Notes: a model not told the origin generated them from the sequence alone. Positions 5,062 through 15,720 are shown, numbered from the stretch's first letter. The stretch is 64,000 nt of DNA from an uncultured Spirochaetaceae bacterium (GCA_944390725.1 CALXQU010000009.1:1-64000); one strand, 5' to 3'. Made by a program: numbers and translations.

Positions 5062-8000
5062 ATGTCGGATGTTTTCAATGAGGCAGTCTTTGAGAATGCT
5101 TTAGTCCAATACCTTGTCGATGAGCTTGACTATACTCATGTGTTTGGCCCGAATGTGGATCGTGATTATAAGGATGTGCTTTATGAAGATGATTTATATT
5201 TTTCTCTTGAGCGGATTAATCCAAGTGTGTCTCGCGAGGCAATTGACACTGCGATTTTCACAATAAAGAACAGGCTCGCGGGAAATCTTATTCAGAGGAA
5301 TGAAACCTTTTTCGGGTATCTTCAGAATGGTATAACTGTCAGCATCATGGAGGATGGAAAGCCTTCGTACCCAATTGTAAAGCTTATTGATTATGACAAC
5401 ATTGAAAAGAATTCATTTGTTGTAGCCAATCAATGGACAATCATAGAGAAAGAACAGAAGCGTCCAGATGTCATCATCTTTGTCAATGGAATCCCTCTTG
5501 TTGTGATGGAACTTAAGTCCTGCACAAGAGAGCAGACAAGTTATTCAGATGCATATCTACAGCTTGAGAATTATAAGAGGGTAATCCCCTCCCTTTTCAA
5601 CTACAATGCATTCTGCATCATCAGCGATATGATTATCACTAAGGCGGGAACGATAACAGCCGATGAGAATCGATATTCACAATGGAAGACAATCGATGGA
5701 ACGCAGATAAATGACAATCCTGATTTTACTGTACTAATGAAAGGAATGCTAGAAAAAAACAGGTTTCTCGATATCATCAGGAACTTCATCCTTTTCCAGA
5801 AAGAGGAGAAAGGCGATATCAAGATCCTTGCTGCCTACCATCAATACCATGCAGTAAGAAAAGCTCTTACTTCAACTCTAAATGCTATCGGGAAATCCCG
5901 GAAAGGTGGTGTCTTCTGGCATACCCAGGGAAGCGGGAAATCGCTATCAATGGTTTTCCTCACCCACCTGCTTAGACAGGCATTGCCGAATCCGACAATA
6001 GTTGTGATAACAGATAGAAACGATCTTGATGATCAGCTTTACCTTCAGTTTGCAAAATGCAGTGATTTTCTTAGGACTGATCCTAAACAGGCGAATAGCA
6101 CAAAGGATCTTACTGAAACGCTTTCATCAACTTATTACGGCGGCATATATTTCACGACAATGCAGAAATTCGAGGAAGCTGAAGAACCTTTCTCTACGCG
6201 GGATGACATCATAGTTCTAACAGATGAAGCGCACCGAAGCCAGTATGGACTTGAAGAATGGTTTGATACAAAGACCATGAAAATGAGGAAAGGTTCTGCA
6301 AGAGTCATAAGGGATGCACTTCCAAACGCTACATATGTCGGCTTTACAGGTACTCCTATATCTGAAAAAGACAGGGACACTGAAGCCGTCTTCGGTAAAT
6401 GCATAGACATTTATGATATGACGCAATCTGTCATAGATGGAGCTACTCGTCCTGTCTATTACGAAAGCCGTGTCATGAATCTTAGTCTGAACAAAGATAT
6501 CCTCAACGACATTGACAATCTTCTGAAGGATTATGTTGCAGAGGAAGAACCTGAATATAAAGTCAATGCAGAGAAAACCAAGAAGGAAAATGCCACGATG
6601 GAAGCCCTTCTCAGTGCTCCAGAGACAATTCATACGTTAGCAAACGACATCATCACTCATTATGAAGCCAGAGAAGATATCCTTACTGGAAAAGCCATGA
6701 TAGTCGCTTATTCTAGGCCAATTGCAGTCCTTCTTTACCAGGAAATGATGAAACTACGGCCAGAATGGAAGGAAAAAGTCAAAGTCGTAATGACGCATGC
6801 TAACAACGATCCTCCAGAGTGGTATGAGATTCTCGGAACTGAATATACGAAGAAGGAGCTTGCGAAGAAATTCAAGGACAACGATGATCCAATGAAAATT
6901 GCCATAGTTGTTGATATGTGGCTAACAGGATTCGATATCCCATCTTTGGCCACGATGTATGTATTCAAGCCGATGGCAGGACATAATCTCATGCAGGCGA
7001 TAGCAAGAGTAAACAGAGTCTTCAGAGACAAGGAAGGTGGTCTAGTTGTTGACTATATCGGTATTGCAACGGCCCTAAAAGAGGCAATGAAGCAATATAC
7101 CAAGAGAGACCAGAAGAACTATGGCGATACTGATATTGCAAAGACAGCTCTTATTACCTTCAGAGATAAGCTTGAAGTCTGTCTAAGCCTTTTCCATGGT
7201 TTTGATATATCCCCATTCATTACAGGCTCTGATTATGATCGTGCGATGACTGTCACTAATGGGCTGAACTTCATACTTGGCAAAGAAAAGGAGAAGAAGA
7301 ATTTCCTTGATGCAGCTTATCAGTTAAGACAGGCTTCATCTCTCTGCAGGAGCTTGTTGGATAAGACAGAACGATATTATGCAAGCTTCTTTGAAACAAT
7401 AAGAGTTGCGGTTCATAAACTGGAGGATCCGACTGTAAAAACAGGAAAGAGCCTCAAGGAACTTTCTCACCAAATCAAGAAACTGTTAAATCAGTCCGTA
7501 ACAAGCAATGGTGTAATCAATGTTTTTGAAAACATAGATACAGAGTTTTCTATTTTCGATGACAAGTTCCTTAAAGAAGTGAGTGAGCTGAAGGAAAAGA
7601 ATATTGCTTCAGAGCTTTTGAGAAGATTGCTGCAGGATAAAGTTCACGACTATAAGCGTACTAACCTTGTTCAGGCGAAAGTCTTCTCTGAAAAGATGGA
7701 AGACATCATGAACAGATGGCGCAACATGCAGATTACCAATGCAGAGGTTATAGAAGAGCTTCTTAAGATAGCAGAGGAAATAAAAGCTGAAGCTACTAAG
7801 GCCAACGAACTTGGACTAACTGAAGAGGAAATGGCATTCTATGATGCGCTTTCAAAACCACAGGCTGTAAAGGATTTTTATCAGAATGATCAGCTTGTAG
7901 CTATGACTAAGGAACTGACGGAGAAACTCAGAAAAAGTCGCACCATTGATTGGAATAAGAAAGAACAGTCAAGAGCTGAAATGAGAGTTATGATTAAGCA

Positions 8001-8100
8001 CCTCCTAAGAAAGTATGACTACCCACCTAAGGAAGCTACAGAAGCTCTTAAGACAGTTCTTGAACAGTGTGAGCTCTGGACGGACAACCAGGCAGTTTGA
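5062..8100 (+). CDS. hsdR: Type I restriction enzyme R subunit (HsdR)
   Basis: The 1012-residue motor and nuclease subunit of a type I restriction-modification complex; it translocates and cuts unmethylated DNA. The N-terminal nuclease has PDVIIFVNG and VVMELKS near residues 135-155, the PD-ExK catalytic layout. The superfamily 2 helicase motor follows, with Walker A TQGSGKSLS near 292, DEAHRSQYG near 388, GFTGTPIS near 427, and LTGFDIPS and ARVNRVF near 620-653. A clear ribosome site precedes ATG 5062. It is followed after ten bases by hsdM. All key motifs appear intact, so the gene should be active. Confidence 0.96.
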   Translation: MSDVFNEAVFENALVQYLVDELDYTHVFGPNVDRDYKDVLYEDDLYFSLERINPSVSREAIDTAIFTIKNRLAGNLIQRNETFFGYLQNGITVSIMEDGKPSYPIVKLIDYDNIEKNSFVVANQWTIIEKEQKRPDVIIFVNGIPLVVMELKSCTREQTSYSDAYLQLENYKRVIPSLFNYNAFCIISDMIITKAGTITADENRYSQWKTIDGTQINDNPDFTVLMKGMLEKNRFLDIIRNFILFQKEEKGDIKILAAYHQYHAVRKALTSTLNAIGKSRKGGVFWHTQGSGKSLSMVFLTHLLRQALPNPTIVVITDRNDLDDQLYLQFAKCSDFLRTDPKQANSTKDLTETLSSTYYGGIYFTTMQKFEEAEEPFSTRDDIIVLTDEAHRSQYGLEEWFDTKTMKMRKGSARVIRDALPNATYVGFTGTPISEKDRDTEAVFGKCIDIYDMTQSVIDGATRPVYYESRVMNLSLNKDILNDIDNLLKDYVAEEEPEYKVNAEKTKKENATMEALLSAPETIHTLANDIITHYEAREDILTGKAMIVAYSRPIAVLLYQEMMKLRPEWKEKVKVVMTHANNDPPEWYEILGTEYTKKELAKKFKDNDDPMKIAIVVDMWLTGFDIPSLATMYVFKPMAGHNLMQAIARVNRVFRDKEGGLVVDYIGIATALKEAMKQYTKRDQKNYGDTDIAKTALITFRDKLEVCLSLFHGFDISPFITGSDYDRAMTVTNGLNFILGKEKEKKNFLDAAYQLRQASSLCRSLLDKTERYYASFFETIRVAVHKLEDPTVKTGKSLKELSHQIKKLLNQSVTSNGVINVFENIDTEFSIFDDKFLKEVSELKEKNIASELLRRLLQDKVHDYKRTNLVQAKVFSEKMEDIMNRWRNMQITNAEVIEELLKIAEEIKAEATKANELGLTEEEMAFYDALSKPQAVKDFYQNDQLVAMTKELTEKLRKSRTIDWNKKEQSRAEMRVMIKHLLRKYDYPPKEATEALKTVLEQCELWTDNQAV

Positions 8101-8110
8101 GAGGAAGAAA

Positions 8111-9628
8111 ATGGCAAAGAAGAAAGAAGCAGTAAAAAATACAGGTAACGTCGGATTCGAGGAACAGCTTTGGGAAGCTGCAGAGATTCTCTGGGGCTCA
8201 ATGGCACCAAGTGCATATCAGAATATTGTCCTTGGTTTGGTTTTCCTCAAATATGTTTCTGATAGATTCGAAGCAAAATACAATGAGCTCAAAGCTGAAG
8301 GTTATGGCGACGAAGAGGATGAGGACGAATATAAGGCAGTCGGAATATTCTATGTTCCAGAGAAAGCAAGATGGTCTTACATACAGCAGTTTGCAGGAAA
8401 GGAAGAGATCGGAACCGTAATTGATAATGCTATGGTTGCAATCGAAGAGCACCATCCAAATCTCAAAGGCGTCCTTCCAAAAGATTATTCCAAGCCTGAT
8501 TGGGACAAGCAGAAACTGGGTGATGTCATTATCAAATTCTCTAACATTCTTATGGAAGTCGATGAGAATGATCGAGATGTTCTCGGACGTACATATGAAT
8601 ACTTTCTGACCAAATTCTCAAAGAATGCAGGCAAGGGCGGTGAGTTCTTCACACCTCCTTGCATTGTAAAGATTTTGGTTGAAGTCATACAACCATATAA
8701 AGGCAAGAGAATTTACGACCCCTGTTGCGGTTCTGGTGGCATGTTTGTTCAGTCAAGGAAATTCATTGAAGCACATTCTGGTAGAATCAATGAGGTTTCA
8801 ATCTATGGACAGGATGCAAATCCTGAGACATGGAGACTTTGTAAGATGAATCTTGCAATCAGAGGTATTGAGGCAGATCTTGGTGACTCAGCCGCTGATA
8901 CATTCCTCAATGATAAGCATCCAACACTAAAGGCAGATTTTATTCTTGCCAATCCTCCATTCAATCTCTCTGCATGGGGAGGTGATAAGCTTACAGATGA
9001 TCCTCGCTGGGTTTATGGCATTCCTCCTGTTGGAAATGCCAATTTTGCATGGATAGAGCATATGATCTCCCATCTCTCTACGGAAGGAAGGATTGGACTT
9101 GTTCTGGCTAATGGTGCTCTTTCATCGGAAACAAGCAATGAAGGAGTTATAAGGAAGAATATAATCAATGCTGATCTGGTTGAAGGCATAATATCTCTTC
9201 CCGGTCAGCTATTCTACACGGTTCAGATTCCTGTAAGTCTCTGGTTCATTTCCCGCCGAAAAGAACAGAAAGGTAAAACTCTTTTCATCGATGCTCGGAA
9301 CCTTGGACATATGGTATCCAGAACTCAGAAGGAAATCAGCGAAGAAGAGATTAGGAAGATAGCTGATACCTTTGATAATTTCCGAAAGGGAAATGAAGTT
9401 GATGAACTTGGATTTGCGAAATCTGCAACAACTGAAGAAATTGCAGCACAGGATTACATTCTTACTCCAGGAAGATATGTTGGCATTCCAGAAGAGGAAG
9501 ATGACGGTATTCCTTTCGAAGAGAAAATGAAGACATTAACATCAGAGCTCTCAGATCTTTTCAAGCAATCTCATGAGCTTGAAGAAGAGATTAAAAAGCA
9601 ACTAAAAGGGATTGGTTATGAAATTTGA
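8111..9628 (+). CDS. hsdM: Type I DNA methyltransferase M subunit (HsdM)
   Basis: A 505-residue N6-adenine methyltransferase. The AdoMet-binding motif DPCCGSGGMF lies near residue 206 and the catalytic motif NPPF near 284. The N-terminal HsdM helical domain (EEQLWEAAEILWG) is present. I start at ATG 8111, which follows GAGGAAGAAA and directly succeeds the hsdR stop. A longer frame reaching back into hsdR lacks support. The product forms M2S with HsdS and modifies the site that the S subunit chooses, so reassortment of hsdS (below) would change the methylome. Confidence 0.96.
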   Translation: MAKKKEAVKNTGNVGFEEQLWEAAEILWGSMAPSAYQNIVLGLVFLKYVSDRFEAKYNELKAEGYGDEEDEDEYKAVGIFYVPEKARWSYIQQFAGKEEIGTVIDNAMVAIEEHHPNLKGVLPKDYSKPDWDKQKLGDVIIKFSNILMEVDENDRDVLGRTYEYFLTKFSKNAGKGGEFFTPPCIVKILVEVIQPYKGKRIYDPCCGSGGMFVQSRKFIEAHSGRINEVSIYGQDANPETWRLCKMNLAIRGIEADLGDSAADTFLNDKHPTLKADFILANPPFNLSAWGGDKLTDDPRWVYGIPPVGNANFAWIEHMISHLSTEGRIGLVLANGALSSETSNEGVIRKNIINADLVEGIISLPGQLFYTVQIPVSLWFISRRKEQKGKTLFIDARNLGHMVSRTQKEISEEEIRKIADTFDNFRKGNEVDELGFAKSATTEEIAAQDYILTPGRYVGIPEEEDDGIPFEEKMKTLTSELSDLFKQSHELEEEIKKQLKGIGYEI

Positions 9629-10103
9629 GTTTTCTCTGGTATATAAAGCTATTGATTGTTGCAAGGAAGCTATTCAGAGATTCTATAAAGAAGACTATAA
9701 TCTCATCGAAATGAAATCTTCAGAAAGAAGCATGGTATTTCGTATTGGCTTGTACATCAATGAAATTGTCTCCAATGATGAAAATCTGAGAGAATACAAT
9801 ATAGATTGTGAATATAATCGTAAAAACTTCAATCCTAAGAGGATTGATTCAGGCTGTATTACTCCAGATCTATTGATTCACAAACGAGGTACTAATAAAA
9901 ATCTTATAGCGGTTGAATTCAAGAAGAGTGGTAATTCATTATCTCATGACAAAGATAAGCTCTCCATTTTAACAAATCAAAATGGAGAATATGGCTATAA
10001 AGCTGGATTGTTAATAATCCTTGAAAAAAACTCATTTAAAATATTTGAATATTGTAATGGAATACTAGAAAACCGTTACAAGGAGAAAATCTTTCTAACA
10101 TGA
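9618..10103 (+). CDS. PD-(D/E)xK nuclease-like protein between hsdM and hsdS
   Basis: A 161-residue protein not normally part of a type I operon. The segment SGCITPDLLIHKRG, then LIAVEFKKS at about residues 77-102, has the spacing of a PD-(D/E)xK active site (D, then ExK), and a helical N-terminus precedes it. I start at ATG 9618, seven bases after AAAGGG; TTG 9612 is an alternative. It overlaps the end of hsdM, and its stop overlaps the hsdS start (ATGA), so it is translated as part of the operon. The nuclease role is inferred from the motif only. Confidence 0.6.
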   Translation: MKFEFSLVYKAIDCCKEAIQRFYKEDYNLIEMKSSERSMVFRIGLYINEIVSNDENLREYNIDCEYNRKNFNPKRIDSGCITPDLLIHKRGTNKNLIAVEFKKSGNSLSHDKDKLSILTNQNGEYGYKAGLLIILEKNSFKIFEYCNGILENRYKEKIFLT

Positions 10104-11131
10104 ATAAAGATTGGCAAGAATATAAGTTCAGAGAATTAGCTGAAATTTGTTATGGTAAGAATCAAAAATCAGTCATTTGTCCTAAAAGCGACATTCCTAT
10201 TTTAGGTACTGGCGGGCTACTGGGATATGCGACACAATATCTTTACAATAAACCATCAGTGCTCATAGGTAGAAAAGGAACAATCTCTAAAGTTCAATAC
10301 ATTGAAAAACCTTTTTGGACTGTAGATACTCTATTCTACACAAAGATTAATAAGGACTTAGTTTATCCTCATTTCTTGTATTATCTGCTATCAACTATTG
10401 ATTTAAGCCAATATAACGAAGGAACCTCTATACCAAGTTTACGAACTGAGACTCTAAACAATATTCAATTAAGCGTTCCATCTCTATCAATACAAAAGGC
10501 TATTTTAAACAAACTTGAATATATAGATAAGGAGATACAAGTAAATACTCAGATAAACGATAATTTAACACAGCAAGTAAATGCGATATATGAATACATG
10601 TTTATAACAAACGCAAATCCTTCCTGGAAAACAGGAAAGCTGTCAGATATTGTGACCGTACGGTATGGAAAAGATCATAAAAAATTAGCCGACGGAACCT
10701 ATCCTGTGTATGGCTCTGGAGGAATAATGCGTTATGTAGAACGGCCTCTTTATAATAAAGAGTCTGTTCTAATACCGAGGAAGGGCACCCTCAATAATGT
10801 CATATATGTTAATCAGCCATTTTGGTCTGTTGATACAATGTTTTATACTGAAATGCGAATACCTAATGTAGCGAAATTCGTATTCAACTATGTCAAAACA
10901 AAGAATCTTTCCGCATTAAATGCGGGCTCGGCGGTTCCAAGCATGACAACCGACATTCTAAATGCCATGGAACTCGTTATTCCTTCCAAATCAGCACTTG
11001 AGAAATTTGAAGAGGTGGTTTCTCCACTGTATAAGGAAATGCAGAAGAACAATAGGCAGTCAGAAATATTAGGAAAACTCCGTGATGTCTTATTACCTAG
11101 ATTGATTTCTGGAGAAATTGTTATTCCCTAG
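10100..11131 (+). CDS. hsdS: Type I specificity subunit HsdS (expressed copy of the shufflon)
   Basis: A 343-residue S subunit with two target-recognition domains: TRD1 at about residues 1-130 and TRD2 at about 175-300. They are separated by the central conserved helix (VNTQINDNLTQQVNAIYEYM) and closed by the C-terminal helix (LGKLRDVLLPRLISGEI). It picks the DNA site for HsdM and HsdR. The ATG overlaps the previous stop. Recombination site 1 lies in the central helix and is read as INDNL, so exchange there swaps TRD2 without breaking the frame. Confidence 0.93.
   Translation: MNKDWQEYKFRELAEICYGKNQKSVICPKSDIPILGTGGLLGYATQYLYNKPSVLIGRKGTISKVQYIEKPFWTVDTLFYTKINKDLVYPHFLYYLLSTIDLSQYNEGTSIPSLRTETLNNIQLSVPSLSIQKAILNKLEYIDKEIQVNTQINDNLTQQVNAIYEYMFITNANPSWKTGKLSDIVTVRYGKDHKKLADGTYPVYGSGGIMRYVERPLYNKESVLIPRKGTLNNVIYVNQPFWSVDTMFYTEMRIPNVAKFVFNYVKTKNLSALNAGSAVPSMTTDILNAMELVIPSKSALEKFEEVVSPLYKEMQKNNRQSEILGKLRDVLLPRLISGEIVIP
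10551..10567 (+). repeat. Shufflon site 1, inside hsdS
   Basis: The 17-bp sequence agataaacgataattta lies in the central helix of hsdS, read in frame as (Q)INDNL. The same core occurs three more times at 11146-11162, 14468-14483 and 15096-15109, with orientations + - + -. It is the probable crossover site of the tyrosine recombinase encoded between sites 2 and 3. Confidence 0.85.
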
Positions 11132-11136
11132 TTTCT

Positions 11137-11739
11137 TTAAGCAACTAAATTATCGTTTATCTTCTCATTTATCTCAATTTTGTTGTTAATTGCTTCAATA
11201 TAATGAGCAGTATATTCTTGTTCTTTATATGACGGAAGATTTATTTTTATTTTTCTAAAATTCTTTAAAGGTTGGGAAAGAGCGGGAACTCCCGTCTGAT
11301 TAGCAAAAGATAAAATCTTATATTGTCCCTCAAATGTATGAAAGTAAAAAACCAAATATGGCACATAAACTTCTTCAGGATTAAATGTTACTCGAAATTG
11401 TCTCTGTGAACATAAATATTCTGTATATTTTGAATCATCAGGAATATAGGATATTTGACCAATATTACCACTTATTGTAACAACAACATCTCTTCTTTTA
11501 GCGATAGATCGATATAAAGAGCGAGCCTTTTCATTTGTCACAAATTTTGTGATATTATCTGTTACCTTAAATCCTTTAAGGTTCGCCCCATCAATAATAG
11601 GAAATCCATTATCTACGAAACAATCAACTTTTAAATTTGAACCAAATGGTCCTGCTGCAATATCTGTAATTACTTCTGAAAGTTCAATCTGTCTTGTCTC
11701 CATACTATCCAATATATTTCCTATGCGATGTCTTAACAT
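11137..11739 (-). CDS. hsdS: Silent first-half hsdS cassette (alternative TRD1)
   Basis: A 200-residue half specificity subunit on the minus strand. It holds one target-recognition domain (IELSEVITDIAAGPFGSN onward, ending LPSYKEQEYTAHYIEAINNK) and the central helix EINEKINDNLVA, then a stop just past recombination site 2. It lacks a second TRD and C-terminal helix. Its sequence differs from TRD1 of the expressed gene. Inverting site 1 to site 2 would give this half the current TRD2 in frame, as a full hsdS on the minus strand. Its start overlaps the end of the recombinase gene, so it may be read from that promoter. ATG 11700 (METRQIELSE) is another possible start. Confidence 0.85.
   Translation of the reverse strand: MLRHRIGNILDSMETRQIELSEVITDIAAGPFGSNLKVDCFVDNGFPIIDGANLKGFKVTDNITKFVTNEKARSLYRSIAKRRDVVVTISGNIGQISYIPDDSKYTEYLCSQRQFRVTFNPEEVYVPYLVFYFHTFEGQYKILSFANQTGVPALSQPLKNFRKIKINLPSYKEQEYTAHYIEAINNKIEINEKINDNLVA
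11146..11162 (-). repeat. Shufflon site 2
   Basis: The 17-bp core (agataaacgataattta on the minus strand) is identical to site 1 but inverted. It lies at the end of the alternative TRD1 cassette, where it also encodes INDNL. On the minus strand it is followed by gttgcttaa, almost the same as the bases after site 3 (gtagcttaa). Confidence 0.85.
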
Positions 11740-12691
11740 TCTGCTGTTTTACCATTGCATACTGCATGGTTGTATCTATCTTCTGATGACCAAGAAGAGT
11801 CTGGACTTGTTCAATAGGCATCCCCTTGTCTATTGCAGTCGTTGCAAGTGTCCTTCTGAATTTATGAGGATGAACCTTCGTAAGGCCTAATTCTCTTCCA
11901 AGTTCTCTCAATCTGACTTCTACAGCATTGATTGTAAGTCTAGAAACAGGATTGTTCAATGTGACGAATAGTCCGCAATAATCATCAGAACGAGATTCTA
12001 GATAGTTCTGAAGATGAAGTTTTGTCCTTGCATCAAAATAGACAATCCGCTCCTTATCTCCTTTACCAAGTACAACACATTCTCTTTCATTGAAATTAAT
12101 ATCTTCCCTATTAAGTTTCACAAGTTCACCAACACGCATTCCTGTGGAGGCAAGCATATCTATAATCGCTAAGTCCCTAAGACAAGAACAATTATCTCTC
12201 ATAAGCTCAAGATCTTCATCTGAATATGTGTCCTTAACTACTTTTGTCGTCTTTATCTTGTGAATCCTTCTTACAGGGCTTTTGAGGATAAAATCTTCAT
12301 CTTCAAGCCAGGAATAATAACTGGAAAGGATCCGTCTGATATTATCTATTGTTACTTTGCTTGCTTTCCTTTCTGTCTGGTAATAAGAAAGATATCCCCT
12401 AAGATCATCTGTTGTAATATTCGAAGCTTTCTTTCCTATATATTCATGCATTTTATTAATTGTGGACTCATAATAAGATATCGTTTTATCAGAGCAGCCT
12501 TCTATTCTTTTGGAAGTCAGGAAAAGCCCAACATAATCAGCTTCTGTCTTGGATATTCCTATATCCGCTATTTCAACAATTTCCTTTCCACGTAATGACA
12601 TCTCAAGCGTATCCAACAGCTTTTTTGATTGCTCATTATCCAATACAGGCATCATCATGCACATTATTTTCTGGATTATCTGCTCTTTCAT
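11705..12691 (-). CDS. Tyrosine recombinase of the hsdS shufflon
   Basis: A 328-residue tyrosine recombinase. The N-terminal SAM-like core-binding domain is at about residues 50-140 (SDKTISYYESTINKMHEYIG). The catalytic residues are visible: Arg in STGMRVGEL, HPHKFRRT (H-x-x-R), LGHQ and the final Tyr in TTMQYAMV. I start at ATG 12691, which follows GAGGAG by nine bases. Type I loci with inverted hsdS fragments usually carry such a recombinase next to the cassettes. It may act only locally, since no element att site lies beside it. Confidence 0.9.
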   Translation of the reverse strand: MKEQIIQKIMCMMMPVLDNEQSKKLLDTLEMSLRGKEIVEIADIGISKTEADYVGLFLTSKRIEGCSDKTISYYESTINKMHEYIGKKASNITTDDLRGYLSYYQTERKASKVTIDNIRRILSSYYSWLEDEDFILKSPVRRIHKIKTTKVVKDTYSDEDLELMRDNCSCLRDLAIIDMLASTGMRVGELVKLNREDINFNERECVVLGKGDKERIVYFDARTKLHLQNYLESRSDDYCGLFVTLNNPVSRLTINAVEVRLRELGRELGLTKVHPHKFRRTLATTAIDKGMPIEQVQTLLGHQKIDTTMQYAMVKQQNVKTSHRKYIG

Positions 12692-12835
12692 AAGTATACA
12701 TCTCCTCATGATAAGTATGAGTCAATCCAAAGGATAGATTTAGAAAAATATCTTCTTTAAGTGCCGTTGGTTATCTATCATCCTATGATATACAATTAAG
12801 AGAGATTATTCCCTGAAACATTCGGAGAGAACTGT

Positions 12836-14479
12836 ATGGATAAATTTATACCAAGTAAAATGACATTCAAAGGTTATAAATGCTTTGTAGAAGAATGCAC
12901 AATCCCTTGGTTTTCTTCATTCAATGTCATAATTGGACGTAACAACTCAGGCAAATCTTCTTTCTTGGACATAATCCATGCTCTTTGTGATGCATATTTT
13001 CGTGCAGATATTTCAAGAACCATTGATATCACTATGACTTACACTATTGATAGTCATAGATACTTTGATATTGACCATGTTGCTTATGGATCTAGTGGTT
13101 TTGCTCTTCCTTATTTTGGCTATCATTTTATGAACAAAGAGATTGCAGTGCATGTAAATCTTAGCCAAACCAATTTTGGCAAGTCATATGTTAATTCATA
13201 TGATATAGATTCCAAAACATTATCAGATGATCAATGCTCATTAAAACTGAGGGATGACATAATTATTGATCCATTCAATAATTCTGTTTTCAGATGTGTA
13301 GCAAGTGAAAGAGATATTAACCAAGAGCCATTTTTTTCTGAATCAGAACAAATTGAAATAGATTCCAATGGTATAGGAACAACTAGATATGCATGCTCAA
13401 TACTCAACAATAAGAATAAAAATGATGCTATCATACAGGAAGACCTGCTAAATGCACTTAATGAAATACTGGGTCCTGATGGACATTACAGAAATATAAA
13501 GGTCAAACAAGATAATGGGGATAATTGGGAAATTATCTTAGAGGATGACAACAAGAATCAGTATCCACTATCAAAGTTAGGTAGTGGTTTAAAAACCATC
13601 CTGTTAGTACTTCTGAATTTAATTGCTATTTCTAATGATCATAAAGATAAAACAATAGTATTTGCCTTTGAAGAATTGGAAAATAACCTTCATCCTGCAC
13701 TGGAAAAACGCTTATATTCTTATATATTCAACTATGCTAAAAAACATGACTATATCGTTTTCCTGACAACTCATTCACCTATTGCAATAGATTTGTTTTC
13801 AAGAGAGGAATCTGTACGCTTCTACAAAACAGAGAAAAATATAAATGGCTACCAGATTGTACCGATTTCGAGCTTTGATGAGTCAATTGAAGCAATAGAT
13901 GAACTTGGAATCAAAGCAAGCGATTTATTGCAGGCAAATGGAATAATATGGGTGGAAGGTCCTTCCGACAGGATATACATTAAAAATTGGCTTAATATGC
14001 AATATCCTGGAAAATTTGAAGAAGGAAAGGATTATCAATTCGTTTATTACGGAGGACGATTATTAGCTCATTATACTGTCTGTGATCCTACAGATAAAGA
14101 AATTGATAACTATATCAATGTGCTTGCAGTGAACACAAAAGCTTTCTTCGTTATGGATAGTGATAAGACTTGTTCTGAAGATTCTCTTGATAATCGAAAA
14201 GAGCATATAATACAAAAACTTAAAGAGAAAAATATATCTTATTGGGTTACACAAGGCAGAGAAATTGAAAACTACCTTGATTTATCAAAAGAAGATATCA
14301 AGCTTGGCCAATTTGATAAATTGGGAGATAAACTGAAAAACTATGACAAAATCAACTTTGCCAAGCAACATTATGCCAATGCTGATTTTAATAAATATGA
14401 TTTGAAGAAAAATTTGAGGGAACTTGCCACAGAAGTTGCGAGATGGAATAACAAAGAATTATCTACTGATAAACGATAA
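12836..14479 (+). CDS. OLD-family ATPase/TOPRIM nuclease-like protein
   Basis: A 547-residue protein with an SMC/RecF-like ATPase split over the N-terminal two thirds: Walker A GRNNSGKSSF near residue 37, Walker B FAFEELENNLHPALE near 279, TTHSP near 310. A TOPRIM domain follows (WVEGPSDRIY near residue 379, FFVMDSDKT near 440). This is the layout of single-gene (class 1-type) OLD nucleases, several of which defend against phage. It lies inside the invertible region, with the recombinase divergent from it. Its last codons (ACT GAT AAA CGA TAA) are recombination site 3 read in another frame. Confidence 0.85.
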   Translation: MDKFIPSKMTFKGYKCFVEECTIPWFSSFNVIIGRNNSGKSSFLDIIHALCDAYFRADISRTIDITMTYTIDSHRYFDIDHVAYGSSGFALPYFGYHFMNKEIAVHVNLSQTNFGKSYVNSYDIDSKTLSDDQCSLKLRDDIIIDPFNNSVFRCVASERDINQEPFFSESEQIEIDSNGIGTTRYACSILNNKNKNDAIIQEDLLNALNEILGPDGHYRNIKVKQDNGDNWEIILEDDNKNQYPLSKLGSGLKTILLVLLNLIAISNDHKDKTIVFAFEELENNLHPALEKRLYSYIFNYAKKHDYIVFLTTHSPIAIDLFSREESVRFYKTEKNINGYQIVPISSFDESIEAIDELGIKASDLLQANGIIWVEGPSDRIYIKNWLNMQYPGKFEEGKDYQFVYYGGRLLAHYTVCDPTDKEIDNYINVLAVNTKAFFVMDSDKTCSEDSLDNRKEHIIQKLKEKNISYWVTQGREIENYLDLSKEDIKLGQFDKLGDKLKNYDKINFAKQHYANADFNKYDLKKNLRELATEVARWNNKELSTDKR

Positions 14480-14483
14480 TTTA
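14468..14483 (+). repeat. Shufflon site 3, overlapping the OLD stop codon
   Basis: The 16-bp core gataaacgataattta again, in the same orientation as site 1. Here the frame reads DKR-stop for the OLD-like gene rather than INDNL. Because the stop lies inside the core, any exchange at this site leaves the OLD-like protein intact. Confidence 0.85.
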
Positions 14484-14488
14484 GTAGC

Positions 14489-15082
14489 TTAACCTCCTAT
14501 TGATATCTGGCCATTCAAAAGCTTAGGTAACAAATAATCACGCAAAGCTGTCAAAGATAGTATTTCTTCATTGTTGTTCATTACCATCGCATCCATAGGC
14601 GCCACTTTTGTTTCAAAAGAATAGATTTGCTCAGGTGATGGTATCTGAACTGATAAGTTATTCAGAGCATCCTGAGAAATAGACCCAAAAACAGTACCTT
14701 CTCCATTAAATTGATCAAGTTGAGACCTTAATGAAGCCATAGTGTAATAAAGAAAAGACGGCGTATTATGCAGACTCCTCAAACAGCTTAGGCCTCGTCC
14801 TATGCAGCATGATTCATTTGCGACATTAATATCACCAACAGGGGCTCTGACGCTCAAAAGAACATCGTTCTTAGCAGCCATTTTCTTAGGTTCTGTAGTG
14901 TACAATCTACGAGTTGGAAATCTAAATCCAAAATCAGTACGCCCCTGATAAAAGACAGTTCCCATTCCTTCTTCGTTATAGCTACTTCCTGCAGGAGATT
15001 GTCCCATAGTAATAGAGGCAATATCACAAAGACGACATTTTGACAGCGAAGTTGTACCAAGCATTTGTTCATAAACGAGCAT
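14489..15082 (-). CDS. hsdS: Silent second-half hsdS cassette (alternative TRD2)
   Basis: The minus strand encodes a second-half specificity subunit. It has an alternative TRD (LCDIASITMGQSPAGSSYN onward) and the C-terminal helix ending LRDYLLPKLLNGQISIGG, matching the end of the expressed HsdS. Upstream of ATG 15082 the frame stays open as NDNLAKQA through site 4, so the true cassette runs to about 15,112 and needs recombination to gain a first half. Inversion between sites 1 and 4 would join TRD1 to this half in frame. An independent start at ATG 15082 is possible but would give only a half subunit. Confidence 0.85.
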   Translation of the reverse strand: MLVYEQMLGTTSLSKCRLCDIASITMGQSPAGSSYNEEGMGTVFYQGRTDFGFRFPTRRLYTTEPKKMAAKNDVLLSVRAPVGDINVANESCCIGRGLSCLRSLHNTPSFLYYTMASLRSQLDQFNGEGTVFGSISQDALNNLSVQIPSPEQIYSFETKVAPMDAMVMNNNEEILSLTALRDYLLPKLLNGQISIGG

Positions 15083-15095
15083 TGCTTGCTTAGCT

Positions 15096-15109
15096 AAATT
15101 ATCGTTTAG
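15096..15109 (-). repeat. Shufflon site 4
   Basis: The 14-bp core taaacgataattta on the minus strand, at the start of the alternative TRD2 cassette. The following bases (gctaagcaagcaatg) parallel those after site 1 in hsdS (acacagcaagtaaatg), showing that both lie at the same point of an S gene. Confidence 0.8.
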
Positions 15110-15214
15110 CTATGGTCGTTAGAAACGTTATTCGGCTCAAATCATTTCAGCAAAACATTGCAGTTGAGCCCAGAAAAAGAAACAACTCCCTGACTTGCAG
15201 AGAGTTGCTGGTGT

Positions 15215-15678: not shown

Positions 15679-15720
15679 TTGACATCGTGGAAGTCGCCAG
15701 TTCAATCCTGGCATCGCCCA
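15679..15720 (+). pseudogene. 3' fragment of tRNA-Val(GAC): island attachment scar
   Basis: These 42 bases match tRNA positions 32-73. They hold the anticodon loop ttGACat (15679-15685), the 3' anticodon stem cgtgg, the variable loop aagtc, the T-stem and loop gccag-ttcaatc-ctggc, the acceptor atcgccc and the discriminator a. The bases before the anticodon loop (agcgtt) do not pair with cgtgg, so the 5' half is absent. Elements that integrate at the 3' end of a tRNA leave exactly such a fragment at one end, and the hairpin that follows looks like the original tRNA terminator. The intact gene should lie beyond the left window edge. Confidence 0.72.

Follow-up and report, generated by a model that had tools for sequence, protein, structure and literature searches.

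Specificity (hsdS) genes that lie in pieces around a recombinase gene raise the question of whether the pieces are reassorted, by which enzyme and into how many proteins. Such a locus is found in a stretch of 64,000 nucleotides from an uncultured Spirochaetaceae bacterium (GCA_944390725.1 CALXQU010000009.1:1-64000), analysed over its whole length and referred to here as the window. A first-pass annotation had read it as a four-site shufflon that can build four type I specificity subunits, a reading that sequence, simulation and relatives support. We consider it very probable that the recombinase of the locus shuffles two first recognition domains (TRD1) and two second recognition domains (TRD2) through four sites into four HsdS proteins.

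Gene content and repeats of the locus

The genes, domains and sites of the locus are as follows (window coordinates).

5062..8100, plus strand: hsdR, restriction subunit (Pfam HSDR_N, SWI2_SNF2, T1RH-like_C; PADLOC REase_I, E=2e-293)
8111..9628, plus strand: hsdM, modification subunit (Pfam N6_Mtase, E=2.6e-106, and HsdM_N)
9612-10103: small ORF between hsdM and hsdS, its ends overlapping both genes (PADLOC PD-Lambda-3_A, E=1.3e-18)
10100-11131, plus strand: full hsdS (Pfam Methylase_S)
10100..10553, plus strand: TRD1a, first recognition domain (Methylase_S), in the fixed expression site that closes the hsdM operon
10554-10567, plus strand: site R1, exact 14-bp copy of TAAACGATAATTTA
10568..11131, plus strand: TRD2a, second recognition domain (Methylase_S, simulation), in segment R1-R2
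11137..11703, minus strand: TRD1b, alternative first recognition domain, 188 aa (Methylase_S)
11146-11159, minus strand: site R2, exact 14-bp copy of TAAACGATAATTTA
11705..12709, minus strand: tyrosine recombinase of the shufflon (Pfam Phage_integrase, E=6e-31)
12836..14479, plus strand: AAA ATPase of the OLD/AriA/GajA type (Pfam AAA_15, AAA_21; PADLOC AriA/GajA/Old)
14470-14483, plus strand: site R3, exact 14-bp copy of TAAACGATAATTTA
14489-15109, minus strand: second-half S cassette, inverted (Pfam Methylase_S)
14489..15094, minus strand: TRD2b, alternative second recognition domain (Methylase_S; PADLOC Specificity_I, E=5e-58), in segment R3-R4 and without a start codon of its own
15095-15108, minus strand: site R4, exact 14-bp copy of TAAACGATAATTTA

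Since hsdR, hsdM and hsdS were all matched (Pfam, PADLOC), the system is classed as type I restriction-modification. As annotated at first pass, one full hsdS is accompanied by an inverted first-half and an inverted second-half cassette, all three matched by Methylase_S, and the gene matching Phage_integrase lies inside the locus. The ATG of hsdS (TRD1a) overlaps the stop codon of the small ORF 9612-10103. This ORF has no Pfam match, and a homologue adjoins hsdR in a Gemmiger locus (L041).

The repeat had been described as four copies alternating in orientation (+ - + -), and the four exact 14-bp copies stand in that order. When up to two mismatches are allowed the window still holds four sites, against a shuffling expectation of 0.21, and none of the shuffles reached four. 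No further exact copy of TAAACGATAATTTA was found in the 2.08 Mb assembly. The repeat was also said to read in frame as INDNL in hsdS and both cassettes. This is so for hsdS and the first-half cassette; the second-half cassette reads LNDNL as it stands, because the first base of codon 1 lies outside the core and comes from the TRD1 side, and it reads INDNL after joining to TRD1 in simulation.

The stretch shared at the junctions is 14-25 bp in the window, too short for efficient general recombination. This bears on the idea that general (RecA) recombination between homologous S genes exchanges the domains and that the recombinase is incidental. Long repeats of pneumococcal spnIII do recombine even without the recombinase (PMC6620402), whereas the 15-bp repeat of SpnIII (PMC6620402) and the 14-bp repeats of SsuCC20p (PMC10790761) depend on the recombinase of their locus. 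We therefore give this idea almost no weight.

Just past the locus lies a sequence resembling the 3'-end of a tRNA (15693-15720), of which a copy with three mismatches occurs on contig C5. To the left, window 0.4-4.4 kb contains helix-turn-helix, AAA and primase-like genes.

Configurations, encoded subunits and expression

In the proposed mechanism the tyrosine recombinase would invert DNA between oppositely oriented sites (R1xR2, R2xR3, R3xR4 and R1xR4), and these inversions would join TRD1a, behind hsdM, or TRD1b, behind the recombinase, to TRD2a or TRD2b. With four resulting HsdS proteins, several methylation and restriction specificities would coexist among the cells of one clone. All inversions between oppositely oriented sites of the window locus were simulated. 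They reach 16 configurations, which encode four HsdS proteins, all in frame: TRD1a-2a (343 aa), 1a-2b (357 aa), 1b-2a (373 aa) and 1b-2b (387 aa). Twelve of the configurations contain one complete hsdS, two contain two and two contain none.

The first-pass annotation had derived individual routes. Inversion 1x4 does give TRD1 with the alternative TRD2, and 1x2 the alternative TRD1 with TRD2, both in frame. The flips 3x4 and 2x3 also make the double alternative in frame, as proposed; however, they keep the original hsdS too, so that two complete subunits result. To obtain the double alternative without the original hsdS, the simulation requires 1x2, 2x3 and 3x4. The 16-configuration scheme with its zero-S and two-S states had been missed, as had three features dealt with below: the second expression site, the OLD-like ATPase gene within the invertible middle segment and the present state of the window, in which the recombinase segment is inverted relative to most relatives.

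The recombinase stop codon and the TRD1b start are 1 nt apart on the same strand. The first-half cassette is therefore probably a second expression site, not a silent cassette. Since TRD1b hybrids stand directly behind the recombinase, their expression is expected from the recombinase operon and not from the hsdM operon; they would be expressed together with the recombinase gene. The position is widespread, a same-strand S frame lying within 120 nt behind the recombinase in 52/55 related loci (see below). Unjoined TRD1b terminates INDNL-VA-stop, the stop codon coming from the end of the adjacent segment. Among relatives, 79/96 sites with a nearby stop terminate likewise, most commonly as INxNL-AA-stop. 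It is as if the shared terminus of unjoined first-domain halves, a truncated half-subunit end, were itself conserved.

The recombinase frame is intact. Residues R192, K216, H282, R285, H308 and Y317 are conserved and fit the catalytic pattern, and comparison with the PDB shows the protein to be XerA/XerD-like. By homology, the recombinase is probably active in this organism. The ATPase stop codon lies inside R3, and the simulation accordingly leaves the ATPase intact in all 16 configurations. The C-terminal part of this protein (12836-14479) looks TOPRIM-like by eye. Other genes occupy the middle segment in five relatives (L048, L146, L254, L281 and L289), as if it were a cargo site.

Relatives, site conservation and natural inversion

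Relatives of the recombinase at 50-70% identity occur in Gemmiger, Faecalibacterium, Lachnospiraceae, Erysipelotrichales, Bacteroidales and the window's own class, on Lactococcus, Ligilactobacillus and Enterococcus plasmids and on a few phage/viral contigs. As a point against the proposed mechanism, function at this level of identity is carried over by homology. No relatives of TRD2b were found in viral contigs. A recombinase of the same family, 56% identical, is present on the archaeal Methanosphaera plasmid pNP174 (L313/L314), between DUF2207 and hypothetical genes and without annotated S genes nearby.

We collected 55 distinct four-site loci whose sites run +-+-, with sites 2 and 3 enclosing the recombinase. 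This layout is found in Clostridia, Erysipelotrichales, Bacteroidales and the window's class, as well as on Lactococcus and Enterococcus plasmids. Across the sites of all 55 loci, TAAA at one end and TTTA at the other hardly change, and variation falls on the six central bases. Although the site search imposed no within-locus identity of the central bases, these are the same at all four sites in 55/55 loci (ten types; shuffled mean 0.7, maximum 5). The window shares the TAAA-N6-TTTA form with identical centres, and its exact 14-mer is present in many of the 55 loci. Outside the site core, bases from one locus resemble each other no more than bases from different loci do. Matched centres fit a tyrosine recombinase that needs a matched strand-exchange region, and we regard them as strong sequence evidence for working sites.

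The same data bear on the suggestion that the repeats are simply the conserved HsdS coding motif INxNL, kept by selection on the protein. INDNL does align with a conserved helix of the solved HsdS 1yf2, and the motif is common. Against this, R3 coincides with the end of the ATPase gene, where no HsdS is currently encoded, yet it is identical to the other copies. Residue 3 of the motif is D, N, K, E, R or H depending on the locus, while all four copies within a locus match in DNA, the flanking coding bases are not homogenised, and plasmid blocks of 100% identity have flipped precisely at the sites (see below). Mere coding conservation was rejected because centre identity, unhomogenised flanks and plasmid breakpoints contradict it; the chance that it explains the repeats is negligible.

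Loci that are close relatives of one another differ at these sites. The loci L232 and L234 differ by inversion of the middle segment at the sites, with flanks 95% identical. In L250 and L282, which are 98-99.9% identical overall, a 99.7%-identical second-domain segment lies on opposite sides of the recombinase. The recombinase protein is identical in the Lactococcus cremoris plasmids pJM2A, pUCCL627F and pJM1A. Relative to pJM2A, pUCCL627F has its two second-domain segments in exchanged positions and pJM1A has the first segment inverted, in each case at 100% identity and with breakpoints at TAAATCATCATTTA sites. In pJM1A (L307), unlike its sister plasmids, one second-domain segment is present at both 7277-7939 and 9520-10182 and the other is lost; this could reflect exchange between plasmid copies or an assembly error.

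For a census, each state was written as three signs for orientation relative to hsdM: those of the first second-domain segment, of the recombinase segment and of the other second-domain segment, in that order. The 53 loci with hsdM present were included; L064 and L263 were dropped (one segment of only 77 or 26 bp). The counts, state followed by number of loci, were:

++- : 22
-++ : 19
--+ : 4
+-- : 3 (including the window)
--- : 2
+-+ : 2
-+- : 1
+++ : 0

Seven of the eight states are thus seen among 53 genomes. When mapped onto a tree of the recombinases, the first second-domain segment changes orientation 18 times (shuffled mean 18.0), without phylogenetic signal. Orientation of the recombinase (middle) segment is conserved, with six changes against a shuffled mean of 10.2, and 0/500 shuffles were as low; inversion of the middle is therefore slow or selected against. 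Natural switching in the family is well supported by these comparisons of sequenced loci, and by analogy the organism of the window probably switches as well.

The locus could still be a frozen relic, in which past inversions made the sites and cassettes and the recombinase or sites are now dead in this organism. The single configuration of this assembly and the conserved middle orientation would both agree with that. The intact recombinase with its catalytic residues argues against it, as do the four 14-bp sites, still identical where unconstrained sites would drift, and the S frames and junctions, all open in simulation. We consider a relic improbable and continue to favour a working shufflon.

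A search across the genus for the hsdS of the window, aimed at another state of this locus, returned the window alone, 1 of 48 members. An hsdS so rare in the genus gives the locus the look of cargo carried by an integrated mobile element.

Known systems and the number of complete hsdS genes

The first-pass annotation noted that phase-variable type I systems are known but derived this particular layout from the sequence. The arrangement corresponds to that of SsuCC20p in Streptococcus suis (Roodsant 2023, PMC10790761) and is widespread. SsuCC20p comprises four TRDs, xerD and four 14-bp repeats, TAAATCATCATTTA, and yields four alleles; deletion of xerD abolishes switching, and methylation is allele-specific and is conferred by hsdS placed behind hsdM as well as behind xerD (PMC10790761). 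The window has the same layout, with TRD2a in R1-R2, TRD2b in R3-R4, the recombinase between the pairs and then TRD1b. In both loci an XerD-like recombinase lies between four TRDs, the TRD1s stand behind hsdM and behind the recombinase, four HsdS are possible and one hsdS is complete at a time. Two identical pairs of 14-bp inverted repeats flank the second domains in each, TAAATCATCATTTA in SsuCC20p and TAAACGATAATTTA in the window; both have the form TAAA-N6-TTTA but differ in the central bases. An L. cremoris relative with the SsuCC20p 14-mer has a recombinase 62.5% identical to that of the window. Unlike SsuCC20p, the window has the recombinase and TRD1b segment inverted, an OLD-like ATPase in the middle, a nuclease-like small ORF between hsdM and hsdS, and a different host group. 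The window locus is thus the already known SsuCC20p arrangement in an inverted-recombinase state. What this analysis adds is the breadth of the family, the within-locus identity of centres, the natural inversion states and an apparent rule of one complete hsdS.

In S. suis a single complete hsdS is present in every assembly, and an inverted-xerD arrangement was looked for but not observed (PMC10790761). The authors guess that recombination proceeds by a coordinated double event (PMC10790761). Family-wide, exactly one complete hsdS is found in 52/53 loci, and none of the family loci collected has two. Zero-S states exist in L236 and, from annotation, in L. salivarius BNS11. Where the recombinase has the common orientation, the segments are opposed, giving one complete hsdS, in 41/42 loci (43/44 with L064 and L263); about half would be expected under unconstrained flipping (binomial p about 2e-11, the loci being non-independent). 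The inverted-recombinase geometry itself guarantees one complete hsdS. In such loci, mostly from Bacteroidales or the window's class, the segments are opposed in only 7/11 (Fisher p=0.005 against 41/42; small numbers and non-independent loci). This looser coupling is more readily explained by selection for a single complete hsdS than by flips that are obligatorily coupled, and we infer that selection maintains exactly one.

The states ++-, +--, ---, --+ and -++ form a series of single-inversion steps with one complete hsdS each, and every member occurs in some genome. As the middle-segment orientation is conserved, most switching in other lineages is argued not to use this series. We suggest tentatively, and with rather more doubt than conviction, that shuffling, in which the second-domain segments change orientation fast, obeys a one-complete-S rule, whether selection or a concerted double exchange enforces it, and that the inverted-recombinase state provides a single-inversion series within the rule. 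The comparison also touches on a question posed by S. suis, namely how the recombinase can switch alleles and yet not leave a cell with no complete specificity gene or with two.

SsuCC20p was reported to be restricted to streptococci (PMC10790761). The arrangement extends across several phyla, its sites sharing the form TAAA-N6-TTTA. The four-site layout proves to be common among gut microbes, and the window adds a clean example from a gut lineage that has been little studied. Each such locus would give a clone up to four methylation and restriction specificities, with consequences for how gut communities resist phages, exchange genes and regulate them. By analogy, the purpose of switching may be varied phage defence and epigenetic regulation. 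A survey of epigenetic invertons by Huang et al. in 2020 reportedly found that hsdS inversions next to invertases are widespread among host-associated bacteria, and it probably includes members of this shufflon family.

Other shuffling systems are less similar. In SpnD39III / Spn556II (ivr) of Streptococcus pneumoniae, hsdS domains are likewise shuffled by a tyrosine recombinase, CreX/PsrA, on a 15-bp inverted repeat, but there are three repeat pairs (15, 85 and 333 bp), of which only the shortest is fully recombinase-dependent, silent hsdS genes serve as templates and the site, CTCTTATTATGGGAA, is unrelated (PMC4948785, PMC6620402). In the hsd locus of Listeria monocytogenes ST8, where an integrase gene separates two S genes, inversion also yields four specificities, but there are two different repeat pairs and two full hsdS genes in opposite orientation (PMC4783014). 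Cassette exchange on direct repeats of the tvr (SpnIV) type was rejected for the window, whose neighbouring sites are all inverted and of one type. In seven Bacteroidales loci (L067, L070, L071, L075, L079, L098 and L099) the same recombinase family adjoins S genes arranged in tandem, with two types of direct repeat (TAAATCATAATTTA and TAAATGAGAATTTA), and these loci resemble the pneumococcal tvr excision-reintegration locus (PMC6265443).
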